Of a stretch of DNA of 64,000 bases, positions 2,197 through 10,349 are shown piece after piece. The stretch spans positions 1-64,000 of the forward strand of contig JAHHHV010000080.1 of assembly GCA_019359155.1 (NCBI GenBank), read 5' to 3'. The stretch comes from Pegethrix bostrychoides GSE-TBD4-15B. GTDB lineage: Bacteria > Cyanobacteriota > Cyanobacteriia > Elainellales > Elainellaceae. Each line of letters begins with the position of its first letter. The first letter of the stretch is position 1. The translations under genes and the position numbers were made by a program. The notes under the pieces were generated by a model, which made no database searches, was not told where the DNA came from, and worked only from the letters and a program-made list of their open reading frames with translations.

Positions 2197-2298
2197 GATG
2201 GCTTCCTTGAGGTAGTCAGTAAATGGGTCAGTAAATGAGCCTCTACTTACTAAACGCTCGACTTCGACGCCGTTATGATCTGACCTAAAGCCTCTGTA

Positions 2299-2354: not shown

Positions 2355-5075
2355 CTATGTTGCTGGGCAGGACGTACCGGGCACTAGCTTAAAGGGTTGG
2401 TTCATGTTGTTCTGGGGCGTGGTCAGCAGACGAGAATCCAGCTCTTTGCGGTCGCCATTTGCGTCAAAGCTGATCGTCTTGTCTTTGAACACAGCGCTTT
2501 CTACCCCGTTCAGACTGGTCAGGCTTTGCTGAATCTGAGTTGAGGTCACGTCAGGGCTAAGCGTCGCCTGCAAAGCTTGTACTGCTTCATAGGAGAGCGC
2601 AGCCGTACGGTTTACGCCCCCAAACCAGTAGACTTCTTCTGCATCCTTGACAAAGCTAACCCCATCTTCCACAGCACAGGCTCGGTACCAGTCGGTTGCA
2701 ATAATCAGTTTGGCTGTGAGGTTTTCAATTGCCCCGCCTGTTTTGATCACGATTTCGTCATAGAGCGGGTTTGAGCCAAGAACGAGGCGCTGGCCGCTGT
2801 TGGCTTTGATCACTTCTACGGCGCGATTAAACGCATCAGGATTGCCGCTGCGGCCATCGGGCAAGACCGCCAGCGCATCGACGCTGCTCACCTGGGTCAG
2901 GGCTGCTTCAACATCTAGCGGCTGGGACAGATCAACCGTCTGCACAACGACACCGTTTTTAGCATTCAAAGCCGCCTGAAATTGATTGAACAAGTCGAGA
3001 CTAAACGAATCCTCTTTGTTGTAAAAGATTGCCACCTTTGGGCGGGGCTGTGACTGCACCAGATAGTCTACCAACGCCTCTGCCTCAATTGCAGTCGAGG
3101 AAGTCGTGCGGAAGAAGAGGTCTGAATCGCCACAGTCTTGGCGTAGATTGGCCGCAGTGCTAAGCGGCGAAACTACCGGGATTTTGGCGGCGCGATAGAC
3201 TTCTCTCAGTGCCTCGCAGGTACTATCGCTGATGTAATGCCCCACAACGGCCAAAATGCGGCGACCGTCAAAGCGGGCATTATCTGCCAGCGATTTAGCG
3301 ACGGCCTTGGCTTGGCTTGGCTGATTGAGATCGTTCACCACCACAATTTCTAGATTAACCGGAGCGCCGCTGACTGGATTCACCGCCCGGTCTTGCGCCT
3401 GAGCGATACCAAACAGCATTTGCTGCCCGATGTTAAGACTCAGCGGCACCGCTGCGGCAATGGTGTAGATGGGTTCTCCGCTTTTGTGACGCAGCCGCAC
3501 TGCCGCGTTGTTTTGATAGATCAAGACAGTGGGATCTTTCAGCGCTTGATCTGCTGCCTGAAACTCTAGGCTGGTGCGAGACTCCTGCCGCCACTGCGTT
3601 TTGGCCTCAGAGCGGATCTGAGCAAACTTTGCCTCTGCCGTCGCGTAGTCTGCGTTGGCAAATGCACTCATTCCTTCCTGCTTCAGATCACCGTACCTGC
3701 CGCTCAGCTCAATAATGCTGTGACTCATCGGCTTTTCCCCCGCGCTAATCAGCTCAGCGGCAGGTAAAGGCGGGGCGACATGCCCAGACGGAGTCTCAGG
3801 CGAGCGAGCCACAGACGAAATTATTGGCAGCGCAATCTTGAGCAACCCTGCCAATAAAGCCATCGTGCCCACAGCCGCCGCAATTTTAATCGCATTTGAG
3901 CGAGGTGGTGGGGAAGGCGGTGTTGGGGGAGGTGGTGCTGGCTCTGGGGCTAGCGGCAGTAAATTATCCAGCAGCTTCTGCCAGGTCAGCGGCTCCGAGT
4001 TCTGCTTAATGCAGGCGGTCGGCAGCCAAGTCACCTCAGAATACCGCGTATTAAAATGCTCTAGCTCCTGCCGAGCCAGTCGGACTGAGCGCAGTAGAGG
4101 CTGCCGCTCCTGCACAAATTGGTGAAAAAACCGATCGATAAACTCAACGGCCACTCTGTCAGGGACTGGCTCTTTCATCACAATGCAGCGCGGCATATCG
4201 AGCTGCGCGAGCTGTTGCGCCAGCCCCAAACTGTCGCAAGAGTTAAAGATTGCCAGCTGCAACCCTTTTTGGATCACTTTTTTGAGCGCAAACTTAAAGT
4301 CAGCAATGCTCAATTCGTCGGTTTCATTCAGCAGCAGCCAGCCAATCTGACCGTCATCACTGCTCCTGCTATGCCCAACATATACCAGAATGTGATAGCC
4401 CTGAGCGTCGCTGAGCGCTGTTTGCAGATCTCTAGTCGAGGGCTGAGACAGCACAATCACTTCGACATGGTCGGAATCGTTAGTTTGTAAGGTCTCAAGC
4501 GTCTGCAAATCTGCTGCCGTCTGAATATCTGCACTCTCCCCAATAATTACCAAAATTCTGATCTTTGCAGCCTGCGGATAGATGGGCGACGCAGGGGGAA
4601 GCGCCTGTTGGGAAAGCGCTCTCAGCGCTGGGTCAGTTCTGGGATAGCGAGTCATCAGCAGATCCCAATCCTGCCAGGGCAGCTTTTTCAGAGTGGTTTC
4701 CTGCCCCAAGTCAATCATCAGGCGCGGTTCAGTGCGGTGGGAAAGCGCAACTAACGTTTCGCGAATTCGCCACCACTCTTTATCTGGAAAGCTCAGCCAG
4801 CTATTGAACTGATCCCTCAACACTTCAGAACGCTCAATTACCTCCCGGACGGAGAGCGTTGTGATCTCACCCGCAGCAATTCGATAGTGCGACCGCACGC
4901 CTTCCTGCCCGGAGTAGGCTCGCTTCCAGTCAGCTAATGCAGCCTGCAATTCTGGCGGCACTGGGGGAAGCAGCGCTTCAAGCTCCTCAGCACCTCCCGG
5001 ATCAAGCCTGACCCGAAAATCTGTATCTGGGCTGTTACTGTTGCGGGAACGAATTACTAACCGAATCATCGACAT
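2355..5075 (-). CDS. Transmembrane CHAT protease with periplasmic ligand-binding domain
   Basis: This 906-residue protein has a clear three-part layout. Residues about 170-360 form a CHAT (caspase-like) protease domain with the histidine in YVGHS (H235) and the cysteine in FNSCDS (C280), so both catalytic residues are present. A proline-rich linker (about 376-392) leads to one membrane helix (about 394-420). Residues about 520-890 resemble the type I periplasmic binding fold of branched-chain amino acid receptors, with the typical VVGHYISD and IPVVSPLST segments. The likely topology is protease inside and ligand sensor outside. The N-terminal 160 residues match nothing I know. It is the third gene of a minus-strand operon with a sigma-like regulator and DUF1822. 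In cyanobacteria, sigma-like/DUF1822/CHAT (often CHAT-CHASE2) gene sets recur; here CHASE2 is replaced by a ligand-binding domain. The ligand and protease target are unknown. Confidence 0.88.
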   Translation of the reverse strand: MSMIRLVIRSRNSNSPDTDFRVRLDPGGAEELEALLPPVPPELQAALADWKRAYSGQEGVRSHYRIAAGEITTLSVREVIERSEVLRDQFNSWLSFPDKEWWRIRETLVALSHRTEPRLMIDLGQETTLKKLPWQDWDLLMTRYPRTDPALRALSQQALPPASPIYPQAAKIRILVIIGESADIQTAADLQTLETLQTNDSDHVEVIVLSQPSTRDLQTALSDAQGYHILVYVGHSRSSDDGQIGWLLLNETDELSIADFKFALKKVIQKGLQLAIFNSCDSLGLAQQLAQLDMPRCIVMKEPVPDRVAVEFIDRFFHQFVQERQPLLRSVRLARQELEHFNTRYSEVTWLPTACIKQNSEPLTWQKLLDNLLPLAPEPAPPPPTPPSPPPRSNAIKIAAAVGTMALLAGLLKIALPIISSVARSPETPSGHVAPPLPAAELISAGEKPMSHSIIELSGRYGDLKQEGMSAFANADYATAEAKFAQIRSEAKTQWRQESRTSLEFQAADQALKDPTVLIYQNNAAVRLRHKSGEPIYTIAAAVPLSLNIGQQMLFGIAQAQDRAVNPVSGAPVNLEIVVVNDLNQPSQAKAVAKSLADNARFDGRRILAVVGHYISDSTCEALREVYRAAKIPVVSPLSTAANLRQDCGDSDLFFRTTSSTAIEAEALVDYLVQSQPRPKVAIFYNKEDSFSLDLFNQFQAALNAKNGVVVQTVDLSQPLDVEAALTQVSSVDALAVLPDGRSGNPDAFNRAVEVIKANSGQRLVLGSNPLYDEIVIKTGGAIENLTAKLIIATDWYRACAVEDGVSFVKDAEEVYWFGGVNRTAALSYEAVQALQATLSPDVTSTQIQQSLTSLNGVESAVFKDKTISFDANGDRKELDSRLLTTPQNNMNQPFKLVPGTSCPAT

Positions 5076-5140
5076 GCTGCTGCCCTAATCTCTCAGTTCA
5101 ATACCAATTCAATATAAGCACGAATGAATTGTCTTCTAGC

Positions 5141-6154
5141 TCAGACGCAGAATTCCTCTATGACGCTGCTCTCGCCAATTGAAATCCGAACGCTAAATCG
5201 CTCGCCGGGGCGACAGTCTAGCAGCTCTAGCTCCGTCCAAACGCTTTCTTCTTTGGGCTGAGATTCTAAAATGACCGTGCCCGACTCGTCCAGTGCGGCC
5301 ACTTTGAGCTGGCTGGGCAGGCAGGTCGAAGCTTGGTCTGGATAGAGTTTTAGGCAAACATTCAGGCTGTTTTCTGCTGCAACTACAGATAGCACCTGCA
5401 CCACCAGCACGACTGTCTGTTCAAGTTGCCCAGACTGCCCAGACTGCCCTGATTGAGTCAGCTGGATTGCCGTAGCTCGCGTCACTGAGCTGGCCTCAGC
5501 ATAGCGCGGCTCTTGCTCAGGAGAATTGCTGCCCATGGCGCTTCTAGAGCCAGACCGAGAGTTTCTAAATCGGCTGGGCACTAGCTCCTCTACAGAGCGC
5601 CACTTTTCGCTAAACTGCCCCTCTAGCCACTGCCGCAGATCGTTAATTGCCGCTTCAGGGTGTAGCAGGTTGAGCAGCGCATCGAGGGGCAGCAAATCCT
5701 GAAGCTGGATTTCTATTGGCGCAATTGCCTGCTCTGCCGACTGTGCTAATTGATCTGCCGCAGCCCGCACAAAGCCCAGCAGCTCGACCGTATTGAGATC
5801 TTCTTGAAACTGCACTGCTACATAGCCAATCCGATCTGTAGCTGATATCGGCACGGCAAAGGCGGCATCTCCTGGCAAGACGGGACGACATTCCAGCAGG
5901 CCAACTTCGGGAATAGCCAGATCTGCAATGTCAAATATGGCTCTTAGTCCGGGCTGCCAGCAGTCAGACTGGGTGAGATCGGTCGAAATTTCCAGCCAGT
6001 TGAGATAAGTATGTACAGCGTAAACGGCCAGCGTGTTCAGGTAAACCTGCTTGCCTTTGGCGGTCGTTGCCTGCTCAGCCGCGAATTGGGCAGCCTTTGC
6101 ATGGGCTTCGCGCGGCAGGGGAACTGGCATTCTCAGTAATGTTGCAATACTCAT
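5141..6154 (-). CDS. DUF1822 family protein
   Basis: The protein has 337 residues. The N-terminal segment, with TAKGKQVYLNTLAVYAVHTY followed by a WLEI motif, is typical of the cyanobacterial DUF1822 family, which has no assigned function. The middle (about 195-245) is low in complexity, with serine/arginine stretches and a short repeat of SGQ units. The C-terminal 95 residues look like a beta-rich domain. The gene sits between the sigma-like regulator and the CHAT receptor-protease on one strand, with 66-73 base gaps. No strong ribosome binding site precedes the ATG, so translation may depend on the operon context. Its constant pairing with these two partners suggests a role in the same signalling chain, which is inference. 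Confidence 0.85.
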   Translation of the reverse strand: MSIATLLRMPVPLPREAHAKAAQFAAEQATTAKGKQVYLNTLAVYAVHTYLNWLEISTDLTQSDCWQPGLRAIFDIADLAIPEVGLLECRPVLPGDAAFAVPISATDRIGYVAVQFQEDLNTVELLGFVRAAADQLAQSAEQAIAPIEIQLQDLLPLDALLNLLHPEAAINDLRQWLEGQFSEKWRSVEELVPSRFRNSRSGSRSAMGSNSPEQEPRYAEASSVTRATAIQLTQSGQSGQSGQLEQTVVLVVQVLSVVAAENSLNVCLKLYPDQASTCLPSQLKVAALDESGTVILESQPKEESVWTELELLDCRPGERFSVRISIGESSVIEEFCV

Positions 6155-6226
6155 GAGCGTTTAATGTCCATTGATGATCAGCGAAGAATTATCAGTAAAG
6201 AATTGAGCGAAAAACTGAGCGAAAAA

Positions 6227-7099
6227 CTATGAGCGAAACTGTTTTAGAATCGGCAGGCATTTACCTTCCCAATGTTGCCAAACATCCGCAACTCTGGGTA
6301 GATGCATCGCCTGAGCAATCTCCTGAACTCCTACTGCCGGATTGGTCAGTAAAAGCTGCTCTGAGAGATTCCAGCAGTTGCATTCTGGATGTCCCTCAAG
6401 CTGAACTTGACTCAGACTTTCTTTCAGCTCAGGGCTAACAATTTCCTGCTTCAACGGCTCGTCAAACCGTAAAGCAATCAGGCGGAGCAGCGGCTGACAT
6501 TTTGTTCTCCAGTGCGTGTAAAGCGCCTGTTCACGAACGCCAAATTCAGCAGCCACCGCTCGGACTGTTGCGGGCGGCTCCTGCAAATGTATTCGCACCG
6601 CCAAAACCTGACAGTTATATGCGGAATTTTGACGCAGATGGCAGCTACCTAAAATACCTTCCGGATCTTGTTCAATATATGTCCGAATTTCCTGACCAGT
6701 CCGCTTGAGTTGTTTCGCCTGCAAATCCTTGATCAGTTTGTCCAGTGAGCTGAGGCTTGGTGTCGGATCTGGGATGTTAGATTTTGCTATATCATTCCTA
6801 CCATCAGAACGATATAGCTCTGTGATTCGCCAGCTGAGATAGCGATTCACCCATTTCATAAAATCTTCTGACTGAGTCGGTGGCGGTTTGTCAGGTTCAA
6901 AGCCTTCGATTTTTTTGGCGACCCAGAGCAGGGTTCGATCTAGAGCATCATAGTAATCTGGATGTCTGTTGCGGAGCAGCCTCGGCGACTGCTGAATCTG
7001 CATGAGCAGTTTCGACAGGCAGCGTTCTCGCTGTAACCGTAGCTCCGAACGCTGATTAACCTGATCCAACAAATCCTGAAATCGCTGATCATCACACAT
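6227..7099 (-). CDS. Sigma-70-like regulator of the DUF1822/CHAT operon
   Basis: From the ATG at 7099 (MCDDQRFQDL) the protein has 290 residues. I prefer this start to one 16 codons upstream because it overlaps the stop of the preceding small ORF in the coupled arrangement ATGTGTGA. The segment FMKWVNRYLSWRI resembles the region-2-like helix of the divergent sigma-70-like proteins that precede DUF1822 genes in cyanobacteria. A helix-turn-helix of region-4 type is visible at TVRAVAAEFGVREQALYTHW. A second, weaker repeat of this layout occurs near the C-terminus (VQEIAQAMHL). The family is annotated as a sigma factor by similarity; whether it binds core RNA polymerase is not established. Confidence 0.75.
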   Translation of the reverse strand: MCDDQRFQDLLDQVNQRSELRLQRERCLSKLLMQIQQSPRLLRNRHPDYYDALDRTLLWVAKKIEGFEPDKPPPTQSEDFMKWVNRYLSWRITELYRSDGRNDIAKSNIPDPTPSLSSLDKLIKDLQAKQLKRTGQEIRTYIEQDPEGILGSCHLRQNSAYNCQVLAVRIHLQEPPATVRAVAAEFGVREQALYTHWRTKCQPLLRLIALRFDEPLKQEIVSPELKESLSQVQLEGHPECNCWNLSEQLLLTNPAVGVQEIAQAMHLPRVADVWQHWEGKCLPILKQFRS

Positions 7100-7292
7100 A
7101 GCTGGGAACCGCTTTAATAGGAGCACAGCCGAGGCCAGACTTCTCATCTCTCAACAGCAGCTTAGCCGCTTTGCAGAACAAACGAAACCCCGATTCACCC
7201 GACAGATTTTTCATGCTAGATCTCACTAAATCCTGTTGAAGCAGCTCTGATTTGACGCTCTCAGACTGGATATCCGGCGCGGCTTTTGACAT
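7092..7292 (-). CDS. Small protein translationally coupled to the sigma-like gene
   Basis: The ORF encodes 66 residues starting MSKAAPDIQSESV. The ATG has GGAG seven bases upstream, and the stop overlaps the start of the sigma-like gene by eight bases, which is typical of a genuine coupled first gene. The product is soluble, with one cysteine pair (LFCKAAKLLL and GLGCAPIK). It matches no family I can recall. If real it is the first gene of the sigma/DUF1822/CHAT operon and might be a regulator or an attenuating leader peptide. The evidence is only the start signal and the spacing. Confidence 0.5.
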   Translation of the reverse strand: MSKAAPDIQSESVKSELLQQDLVRSSMKNLSGESGFRLFCKAAKLLLRDEKSGLGCAPIKAVPSYV

Positions 7293-9479: not shown

Positions 9480-10349
9480 TTGACGTATCACTCGTTTTGG
9501 TATTACTGGGCCGCTTTCTTTGGGTTAATTCTGGTTCGCTACTTTGCGGTTGCTGGGGGAGCTTACCTGCTGTTCTATGGCCTGCCCAGTCGCTTTTCTG
9601 GTGGCACTGGCAACACTGGTGGCACTGGCAACACTGGCGGCTTGCTTGGACGCAGGCTGCGCTCAAAGCCGCCGCAGCTTCAGGCGATTCGCCAAGATAT
9701 TTATTTGGCGATGCAGTCTACGCTATTTTTTGCAACTGCGGCTGCCTTTGTAATCTGGCGCTATGACCGAGGGGAGACTTGCCTCTATGCCGATCTAAGC
9801 GCCTACGGCTATTTCTACGCGGTTACTAGCTTTGGCTTAGTCTTGATCTTGCAGGACAGCTATTTTTATTTTATCCACCGCGCGTTTCATCAGCCGTTTC
9901 TGTTCAAGCATTTCCATGCTGGCCATCATCGTTCCGGCGATCCCACCCCCTGGACATCTTTTGCATTTGACCCAGCAGAAGCCTGCCTACAGGCGATCTT
10001 CCTTGTTGGTATTACCTTCATCATTCCGCTCAACTTTTTTGTTCTAATTGCGTTGCTGCTGACGATGACCGTTTGGACTGTGGTCAACCATCTGGGATTT
10101 GAGCTATTTCCAGCCAGCTTTTCGCGGCATTGGCTGAGCAAATGGTTGATTGGCTCTACGCATCATTCACTGCACCATCGTAAATATCGCGTCCACTACG
10201 GACTATATTTCACCGTCTGGGACAAGCTTCTGGGTACAGATGACCCTGCCTATGAGCTGGAGTTTGATGATAGCCTTCGCTCGGAAAAGCTGCCAGAGAG
10301 ACTTCCAGAGAGACTTCCAGAGAAACTATCAAGACAGCTGAGTGATTGA
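9480..10349 (+). CDS. Sterol desaturase/fatty acid hydroxylase family membrane enzyme
   Basis: This 289-residue membrane protein carries the histidine boxes of the FA_hydroxylase superfamily: HRAFH, HAGHH and the later pair THHSLHH with HYG. These bind a di-iron centre that hydroxylates or desaturates lipids or carotenoids with oxygen. Four or more hydrophobic segments are visible. Translation appears to start at TTG with AAGGA about ten bases upstream. Two coding tandem repeats decorate it: an 18-bp repeat giving GGTGNTGGTGNT near residue 40, and a 12-bp repeat giving LPERLPERLPEKL at the C-terminus. Both are probably neutral expansions. The substrate is unknown. Confidence 0.85.
   Translation: MTYHSFWYYWAAFFGLILVRYFAVAGGAYLLFYGLPSRFSGGTGNTGGTGNTGGLLGRRLRSKPPQLQAIRQDIYLAMQSTLFFATAAAFVIWRYDRGETCLYADLSAYGYFYAVTSFGLVLILQDSYFYFIHRAFHQPFLFKHFHAGHHRSGDPTPWTSFAFDPAEACLQAIFLVGITFIIPLNFFVLIALLLTMTVWTVVNHLGFELFPASFSRHWLSKWLIGSTHHSLHHRKYRVHYGLYFTVWDKLLGTDDPAYELEFDDSLRSEKLPERLPERLPEKLSRQLSD
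9600..9641 (+). repeat. In-frame 18-bp tandem repeat
   Basis: GGTGGCACTGGCAACACT occurs twice, followed by a partial third copy, inside the hydroxylase gene; it encodes a Gly-Thr-Gly-Asn-Thr-Gly run between membrane segments. Confidence 0.9.
10293..10327 (+). repeat. In-frame 12-bp tandem repeat
   Basis: CCAGAGAGACTT is repeated almost three times at the 3' end of the hydroxylase gene and encodes repeated Pro-Glu-Arg-Leu units. Confidence 0.9.

Follow-up and report, generated by a model that had tools for sequence, protein, structure and literature searches.

A variant EACC2-caspase/ECF-sigma/DUF1822-type operon in Pegethrix bostrychoides with a predicted CHAT receptor-protease and a candidate route to sigma factor release

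Gene neighborhoods combining EACC2-caspase, ECF-sigma, and DUF1822 genes have been described and interpreted previously (Kaur et al. 2021; PMC8195603). A locus of this kind lies in a 64,000-nucleotide stretch of Pegethrix bostrychoides GSE-TBD4-15B (contig JAHHHV010000080.1, positions 1 to 64,000; referred to here as the window). Because its layout already appears in that paper, the neighborhood is known, and the statement in a preliminary description of the window that sigma-like/DUF1822/CHAT neighborhoods lack an assigned function no longer holds; the locus is a variant copy of a gene set described in outline before. It shares with the EACC2 systems a caspase-superfamily peptidase, here preceded by a putative counterpart of their constant N-terminal alpha+beta domain, a variable C-terminal domain behind a transmembrane (TM) helix, and adjoining ECF sigma and DUF1822 genes. 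It differs from the EACC2 systems as described in that the variable part is a type I periplasmic-binding domain (PBP) and the sigma factor carries region 4 in tandem. EACC1-caspase systems (Kaur et al. 2020; PMC7159879) also have a caspase protein with a variable C terminus (including TM plus PBP), but they contain another constant component, occur mostly in actinobacteria, and have no sigma or DUF1822 named.

Two further kinds of system bear on the locus. In type III-E Craspase (Csx29 TPR-CHAT, Csx30, and CASP-sigma; PMC10028731), CASP-sigma is bound and inhibited by Csx30, and Csx30 in turn is cut by the CHAT protease Csx29. Here, too, a CHAT protein is co-encoded with a sigma factor and with a two-part partner whose linker is flexible, but the input would be an outer ligand receptor rather than target RNA bound by Cas7-11. 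The RseA-SigmaE and RsiW-SigW systems share with our proposal a membrane-linked signal leading to sigma release by proteolysis, and it is SigW and SigmaE that the modeled sigma factor resembles most closely in structure. In those systems, the anti-sigma factor is in the membrane and the protease is separate, whereas in this locus a single protein combines sensor with protease, and the inhibitor, as proposed, is a soluble protein. New in the present locus and its relatives are the support from structure prediction for the sigma fold, the tandem duplication of region 4, the exchange of the PBP sensor between CHAT, kinase, and caspase outputs, the two-domain architecture of DUF1822 with its disordered linker, and an HTH-TRADD-N-DUF1822 fusion that replaces the sigma gene.

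All features of the locus are on the reverse strand. A small open reading frame (ORF; 7092 to 7292; 66 aa) overlaps with its stop the start of an ECF-type sigma factor gene (6227 to 7099; 290 aa; region 2 and two tandem copies of region 4) by 8 bases (7092 to 7099), as noted in the preliminary description. The DUF1822 gene (5141 to 6154; 337 aa; Pfam PF08852, E 1.2e-58) follows after 72 bases, and a receptor-protease gene (2355 to 5075; 906 aa; CHAT, TM helix, and type I PBP) adjoins it after a further 65 bp. The operon is real, and its conserved core consists of three genes (ECF-type sigma, DUF1822, and the CHAT-TM-PBP fusion), not five. Co-conservation had been set beforehand as a test of the proposed unit. 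Among 36 genomes of the order, DUF1822 was directly downstream (within 600 bp) of 63 of 67 sigma-family genes, and a CHAT gene was downstream of at least 56 of the 67; conversely, 77 of the 90 CHAT genes listed had DUF1822 upstream. All four sigma-family members of the organism's own genome sit in sigma-DUF1822-CHAT operons, sigma and DUF1822 were the conserved neighbors of CHAT in the loci read, and the recurrence of this order in dozens of loci is more than chance. The claim of a single gene unit therefore stood for these three genes, which are strictly co-conserved, and fell for the small ORF and for a peptide that had been counted as pathway members, because neither had detectable homologs in most orthologous loci (phmmer and tblastn).

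The small ORF had no homologs by phmmer. Its overlap with the sigma start was the sole conserved trait: an ORF whose end, ...P[S/N][H/Y]V, covers the sigma ATG was kept in the three closest orthologous loci, and its counterpart in the same-genus locus resembled it only by KAAKLL-type similarity. It is a possible translational-coupling leader whose peptide sequence is hardly conserved. The peptide ORF (35 aa; ATG at 2196, stop ending at 2089; LPPPR motif) is a separate small gene that lies outside the operon span (2355 to 7292) in which it had been placed, and it is cut off from the operon by an intrinsic terminator (2330 to 2307; 10 pairs, then a T-run); the five-gene unit and its attenuator are therefore unsupported. 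The hairpin read earlier as an attenuator before the peptide is this ordinary terminator 3' of the CHAT gene, and the orthologous locus of the same genus also has its stem.

Upstream of the peptide ORF is a 23-nt element (2240 to 2262; GTCGA[G/A]CGTTTAGTAA[G/A]TAGAGG), which is likely a promoter or regulatory site of that ORF outside the core operon. None would be expected by chance in the window, and among the 36 genomes, exact copies were present only in this genome and at the syntenic same-genus locus, which speaks against a wider regulon. A peptide of the same length with FSxGxxNLPPP[RK] was encoded at the syntenic place in that same-genus genome (G013), together with a further, unlinked copy (the third overall) preceded by an AGGAGA ribosome site. 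The peptide pattern gave 18 matches in the order; apart from the window's own, just two of them, both in G013, looked real, and across 386 genomes of the phylum it gave this locus and one chance-like match. Rather than a widespread family, the peptide gene is, as judged from such searches, restricted to and known only from this genus. It is conceivable, though we consider it highly improbable, that the operon's sigma factor drives production of the peptide and that the peptide, after export and trimming, binds the PBP as its ligand, which would close a peptide-gated protease-sigma feedback loop. We retain this reading because the peptide core, the position by the receptor gene, and the 23-nt element are kept in both same-genus genomes with the locus; it is weakened by the lack of an evident export signal, the unlinked copy, and the more distant PBP-CHAT operons that have no peptide.

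The sigma-like ORF spans 306 aa when read from ATG 7147 to 6227, but the start at ATG 7099 given in the preliminary description is supported because three orthologs begin with MCD at that position. The sigma-like identity claimed there was likewise supported by structure prediction (AF2 pLDDT, 87.7) and structural matches. The best of these were SigW, SigmaE, AlgU, and SigK, with the SigW-RsiW and SigmaE-RseA structures on top. Residues 4 to 105 of the model superposed on SigW region 2 (Z 8.2; rmsd 2.7 over 87), and residues 120 to 214 superposed on SigL region 4 (Z 6.8). The Foldseek E-values were weak, the window's sigma by itself reached no Pfam or NCBIfam cutoff, and TIGR02937 matched 11 of 22 relatives at E values up to 0.1. 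A second copy of region 4 was found at residues 227 to 289 (i-Evalue, 6.9e-13), and no shuffle reached the self-alignment score. The usual ECF layout with a single region 4, which is not strictly defining, thus does not apply to this protein, and we file it as an ECF-type variant; its assignment as a predicted sigma factor of the ECF type (group IV) is supported by the modeled region 2 and region 4 folds. We know of no earlier description of a sigma factor with a tandem region 4. In an alternative reading, the sigma factor itself would be the protease substrate, for example, becoming active by loss of the extra copy, and the confinement of that copy to this clade and one case elsewhere fits the idea. 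We nevertheless consider it very unlikely, since 48 of 54 family ORFs lack a second region 4 and AF2 models copy 2 as a well-ordered domain that ends in no long, loose tail. Dyads 5' of 50 operons were no more common than in shuffles, giving no sign of a shared sigma-autoregulation promoter.

The DUF1822 protein was modeled as an N-terminal alpha+beta domain, a disordered linker (about residues 198 to 222), and a C-terminal beta-sandwich (AF2 pLDDT, 87.5 overall and below 50 at 202 to 215). The linker varies in length among relatives. The prediction differs from the TPR assignment of Kaur et al. (PMC8195603), since the model of this member has no TPR array. DUF1822 had no sequence similarity to Pfam anti-sigma families or solved structures, and its profile matched no PDB sequence at E values up to 5. 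In the fold comparison with the PDB, the matches listed concerned the C-terminal sandwich and did not include Csx30; with no sequence relation detected to Csx30, the likeness is an analogy of how the two may work. In one locus, the HTH-TRADD-N-DUF1822 fusion stands directly upstream of a CHAT gene, which ties DUF1822 to a DNA-binding output. Many Nostoc DUF1822-CHAT pairs have no adjoining sigma gene, and DUF1822 there would need either another role or a distant sigma as its target. We propose DUF1822 as a sigma inhibitor or adaptor and as the protease substrate; its anatomy and the Craspase precedent make it the better candidate for the cut partner, on which the co-made CHAT protease probably acts.

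The 906-aa receptor-protease comprises an N-terminal conserved domain (about residues 1 to 165), a CHAT peptidase (about 170 to 345; Pfam E 1.1e-12), a Pro-rich stretch, a single predicted TM helix (398 to 416), and a type I PBP (about 500 to 890; Peripla_BP_6, E 1.2e-18) closest to Leu/Ile/Val-type binding proteins. Pfam CHAT was matched in 27 of 27 sequences, and His235 and Cys280 were invariant in all 27 (G234-H235-S236 and N278-S279-C280). The CHAT match, these residues, and the one TM helix agree with the transmembrane CHAT protease proposed earlier, as a predicted protease, and the Peripla_BP_6 match beyond the helix agrees with the proposed outer ligand-binding domain, as a predicted topology. 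The Pro-rich stretch between CHAT and the TM helix fits autoproteolysis as put forward by the authors who defined the EACC2 systems (Kaur et al.): upon a stimulus, CHAT would cut its own polypeptide and free part of the receptor, with DUF1822 and sigma engaged downstream by protein contacts and not as substrates. This alternative is unlikely in our estimation, as it offers no reason why DUF1822, with its loose linker, accompanies CHAT more constantly than any other partner does (77 of 90 CHAT genes), and the known CHAT-sigma case (Craspase) cuts a separate protein.

Relatives keep a conserved stretch of ~165 residues before CHAT, which we liken to EACC2 by its description, while the C-terminal part is highly variable. 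Among 100 distinct proteins, it was CHASE2 in 61, PBP in 12, nSTAND/WD40 in 5, and other in 22 (including PBP_like_2, kinase, NACHT, and WD40). Such varied sensors on a constant triad are what would be expected of a fixed output with exchangeable inputs. The nSTAND, NACHT, and WD40 modules are typical of defense, and EACC2 relatives have been placed among conflict and apoptosis systems (PMC8195603); triggered CHAT might therefore degrade host proteins as a programmed-death or defense effector, with sigma and DUF1822 only controlling expression of the system. We regard this as decidedly unlikely: PADLOC matched none of the five proteins as an antiphage system, a ligand-binding domain on the outside is better suited to sensing nutrients or signals than phages, and most species keep several paralogous operons per genome.

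Our preferred reading, to which we give about an even chance, is that the operon encodes a transmembrane signaling system in which CHAT, gated by a ligand, cleaves DUF1822 and so releases the ECF-type sigma. A ligand would bind the PBP outside the inner membrane, and the one TM helix would relay the change to the CHAT protease in the cytosol. Once activated, CHAT would cut DUF1822, which normally would hold the sigma factor, in its disordered linker; the sigma factor would then be free to redirect transcription. We infer ligand gating and both roles of DUF1822 from the strict triad, the invariant CHAT His/Cys pair, the sigma fold, the loose and variable linker, the HTH fusion, the Csx29-Csx30-CASP-sigma precedent (PMC10028731), and the varied sensors on a constant triad. 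The lack of similarity of DUF1822 to anti-sigma families or solved structures, the sigma-less Nostoc pairs, the lack of a shared autoregulatory dyad 5' of the 50 operons, the sub-cutoff sigma, and the weak Foldseek E-values count against it.

If this mechanism is true, CHAT-protease sigma release would be a general chromosomal signaling scheme rather than a CRISPR oddity as in Craspase, one of which most of these cyanobacteria carry several copies and in which the outer sensors are exchangeable. A receptor-protease made of one protein would couple an external ligand to a transcriptional response, and DUF1822 would gain a function. A sigma factor with two tandem region-4 modules would, in addition, represent what is to our knowledge a new promoter-recognition arrangement.

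On the minus strand, a small ORF (66 aa; 7292-7092) is followed by a sigma-like ORF (7099-6227), a DUF1822 ORF (6154-5141), and an ORF for a 906-aa protein with CHAT and type I periplasmic-binding (PBP) domains (5075-2355). The stop of the small ORF and the sigma start share 8 bases; gaps of 72 and 65 bases separate DUF1822 from the sigma and 906-aa ORFs, respectively. A sigma start at 7099, not 7147, is supported by orthologues that open with MCD at this position. A short tandem repeat (TGAGCGAAAAAC; period 12; 2.7 copies) lies at 6204-6238, in the sigma-DUF1822 gap. The LPPPR peptide, described preliminarily as the fifth operon member, is encoded at 2196-2089 (minus strand), outside 7292-2355 and behind a good intrinsic terminator (2330-2307, minus strand) that follows the CHAT-PBP ORF; it is thus a separate small gene. 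Elsewhere in the window, a fatty-acid-hydroxylase/sterol-desaturase-like ORF (9480-10349) has, in its N-terminal portion, a run of in-frame GGTGNTGGTGNTGG repeats, possibly a length-variable tract.

Among 36 genomes of the order, the sigma family was present at 67 loci, with DUF1822 immediately 3' of the sigma-family gene in 63 and a CHAT gene next after DUF1822 in at least 56. DUF1822 was upstream of CHAT in at least 77 genes among the 90 CHAT matches listed (E cutoff, 1e-20; these counts are lower bounds). Within the Pegethrix genome itself, four loci besides that of the window bear a CHAT gene of this type, and all four sigma-family members (4/4) adjoin DUF1822. A scan of public genomes yielded 79 loci, chiefly from filamentous cyanobacteria; over all loci compared, DUF1822 was upstream of 90 of 114 CHAT genes, 48 of which also had sigma. 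The co-conservation expected of the proposed unit therefore holds for sigma, DUF1822, and CHAT. Some Nostoc loci have the DUF1822-CHAT pair with no adjoining sigma gene, and in another group a longer, different sigma-like gene fills the sigma slot. A second, longer sigma-like family (400 to 570 aa), its C terminus resembling sigma region 4, lies directly upstream of DUF1822 in the DUF1822-CHAT operons of loci L128, L136, L141, and L076. One further DUF1822 match in the Pegethrix genome (G000:C64:108624-112367 [L001]; L024) contains two internal stop codons, with no CHAT or sigma neighbor found, and is possibly a decayed copy.

The small ORF and the peptide lacked homologues in most orthologous operons and are not supported as pathway members. 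At the three nearest orthologous loci, an ORF likewise terminates over the sigma start; this overlap may reflect translational coupling, not a functional peptide. A syntenic counterpart of the LPPPR peptide, equal in length (MVIPTLASQALSSICRFSLGADNLPPPKATMTAAD), occurs in the sole other same-genus genome where the locus was found; an unlinked third relative (MMNAMISETSQTIAKRAYSSGGEQLPPPINYSIN) has a good, clear ribosome site (L227:2098-2199, minus strand, G013:C25). A 23-nt element upstream of the peptide (2240-2262, minus strand) is exact in both syntenic loci and occurs nowhere else in the 36 genomes. The peptide is thus probably a real, genus-restricted gene outside the conserved pathway. 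The third relative converges with a STAND-NTPase-type gene and is not near a CHAT gene.

The window sigma protein reached no curated sequence cutoff; half of its relatives match TIGR02937 (sigma70-ECF). Its AlphaFold2 model (pLDDT, 87.7) aligned best with SigW, SigmaE, AlgU, and SigK, residues 4-105 matching region 2 (Z, 8.2; rmsd, 2.7 over 87 residues) and residues 120-214 (approximately) matching region 4, and sigma factors make up nearly all of the best 50 structural matches listed. Because Foldseek E values were weak (best, 0.13), the predicted identity rests on sequence family and structure jointly. A second region 4 copy (residues 227-289; i-Evalue, 6.9e-13; self-alignment score, 65 versus a maximum of 45 among 1000 shuffles) is present in the window, its same-genus orthologue, and two genomes of another genus, and occurs separately in a Microcoleus locus.

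The DUF1822 model (pLDDT, 87.5) comprises an N-terminal alpha+beta domain and a C-terminal beta-sandwich of general likeness only to immunoglobulin-like sandwiches (Z, about 7), joined by a predicted linker (202-215; pLDDT, <50). The model does not resemble a TPR protein, which is how Kaur et al. (2021) name DUF1822. In an Oscillatoria princeps MAG (L104:4091-5974), one protein combines an HTH (GerE/sigma-4 type) with TRADD-N and DUF1822; an EACC2-CHAT gene follows directly, and no sigma gene was found at that locus. TRADD-N also occurs on a DUF1822 protein of the second alignment. This links the version of the system with TRADD-N to the one with sigma and places DUF1822 on the transcription side.

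In the 906-aa protein, an N-terminal conserved stretch (approximately residues 1-165) precedes a CHAT peptidase domain (Pfam E, 1.1e-12). Next come a proline-rich stretch, a single transmembrane helix (398-416), and a PBP domain (Peripla_BP_6; E, 1.2e-18) whose nearest solved relatives are Leu/Ile/Val-binding proteins. Gly234-His235-Ser236 and Asn278-Ser279-Cys280 are invariant in 27 aligned relatives, so CHAT is expected to be an active protease. PBP domains function outside the cytoplasm; given the single helix, CHAT is placed on the cytoplasmic side and PBP on the outer side. Autoproteolysis, as Kaur et al. propose, appears unlikely as the role of this activity. At about even chances, by analogy, a ligand bound outside would activate CHAT inside, which would cleave DUF1822 in its linker and release sigma. 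Of this scheme, the components, their order, and the active-site residues are shown, as are, by prediction, the sigma fold and the linker; ligand gating, inhibition of sigma, and the identity of the substrate are what we infer here. The precedent for CHAT cleavage of a sigma inhibitor is Craspase (PMC10028731): its CHAT protease, Csx29, cleaves Csx30, a protein that binds CASP-sigma and inhibits it. DUF1822 is proposed here for the role of Csx30. A role of the system in defense or death is, in our estimation, rather improbable. Cleavage of sigma itself would be a decidedly improbable course.

According to Kaur et al. (2021; PMC8195603), EACC2-caspase proteins have variable C termini and are encoded beside genes for an ECF sigma and DUF1822, so this locus belongs to a type already described. 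What marks it as a variant are its PBP input, its tandem region 4, and the structure modeled for DUF1822. PBP has been named for EACC1 systems; for EACC2, the passages drawn on here mention small-molecule-binding domains only in general terms. A same-genus relative of the window sensor (L058:3231-5132, G011:C261) is fused to a Ser/Thr kinase that lacks its N-terminal portion in the ORF, the kinase profile being matched only from position 155; this is either a start/frameshift problem or a decayed kinase. The 100 distinct CHAT proteins carry CHASE2 (61), window-type PBP (12), nSTAND/WD40 (5), or other partners (22, including a second PBP superfamily, kinase, NACHT, and WD40). The window-type PBP domain also occurs by itself and, in relatives, as a fusion partner of Ser/Thr kinases or of C14 caspases. 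The PBP-domain tree requires the CHAT label to change at least five times on well-supported branches, and the closest same-genus PBP that is not part of a CHAT protein belongs to a kinase. Judged from these sequences, sensor and output are exchanged freely.
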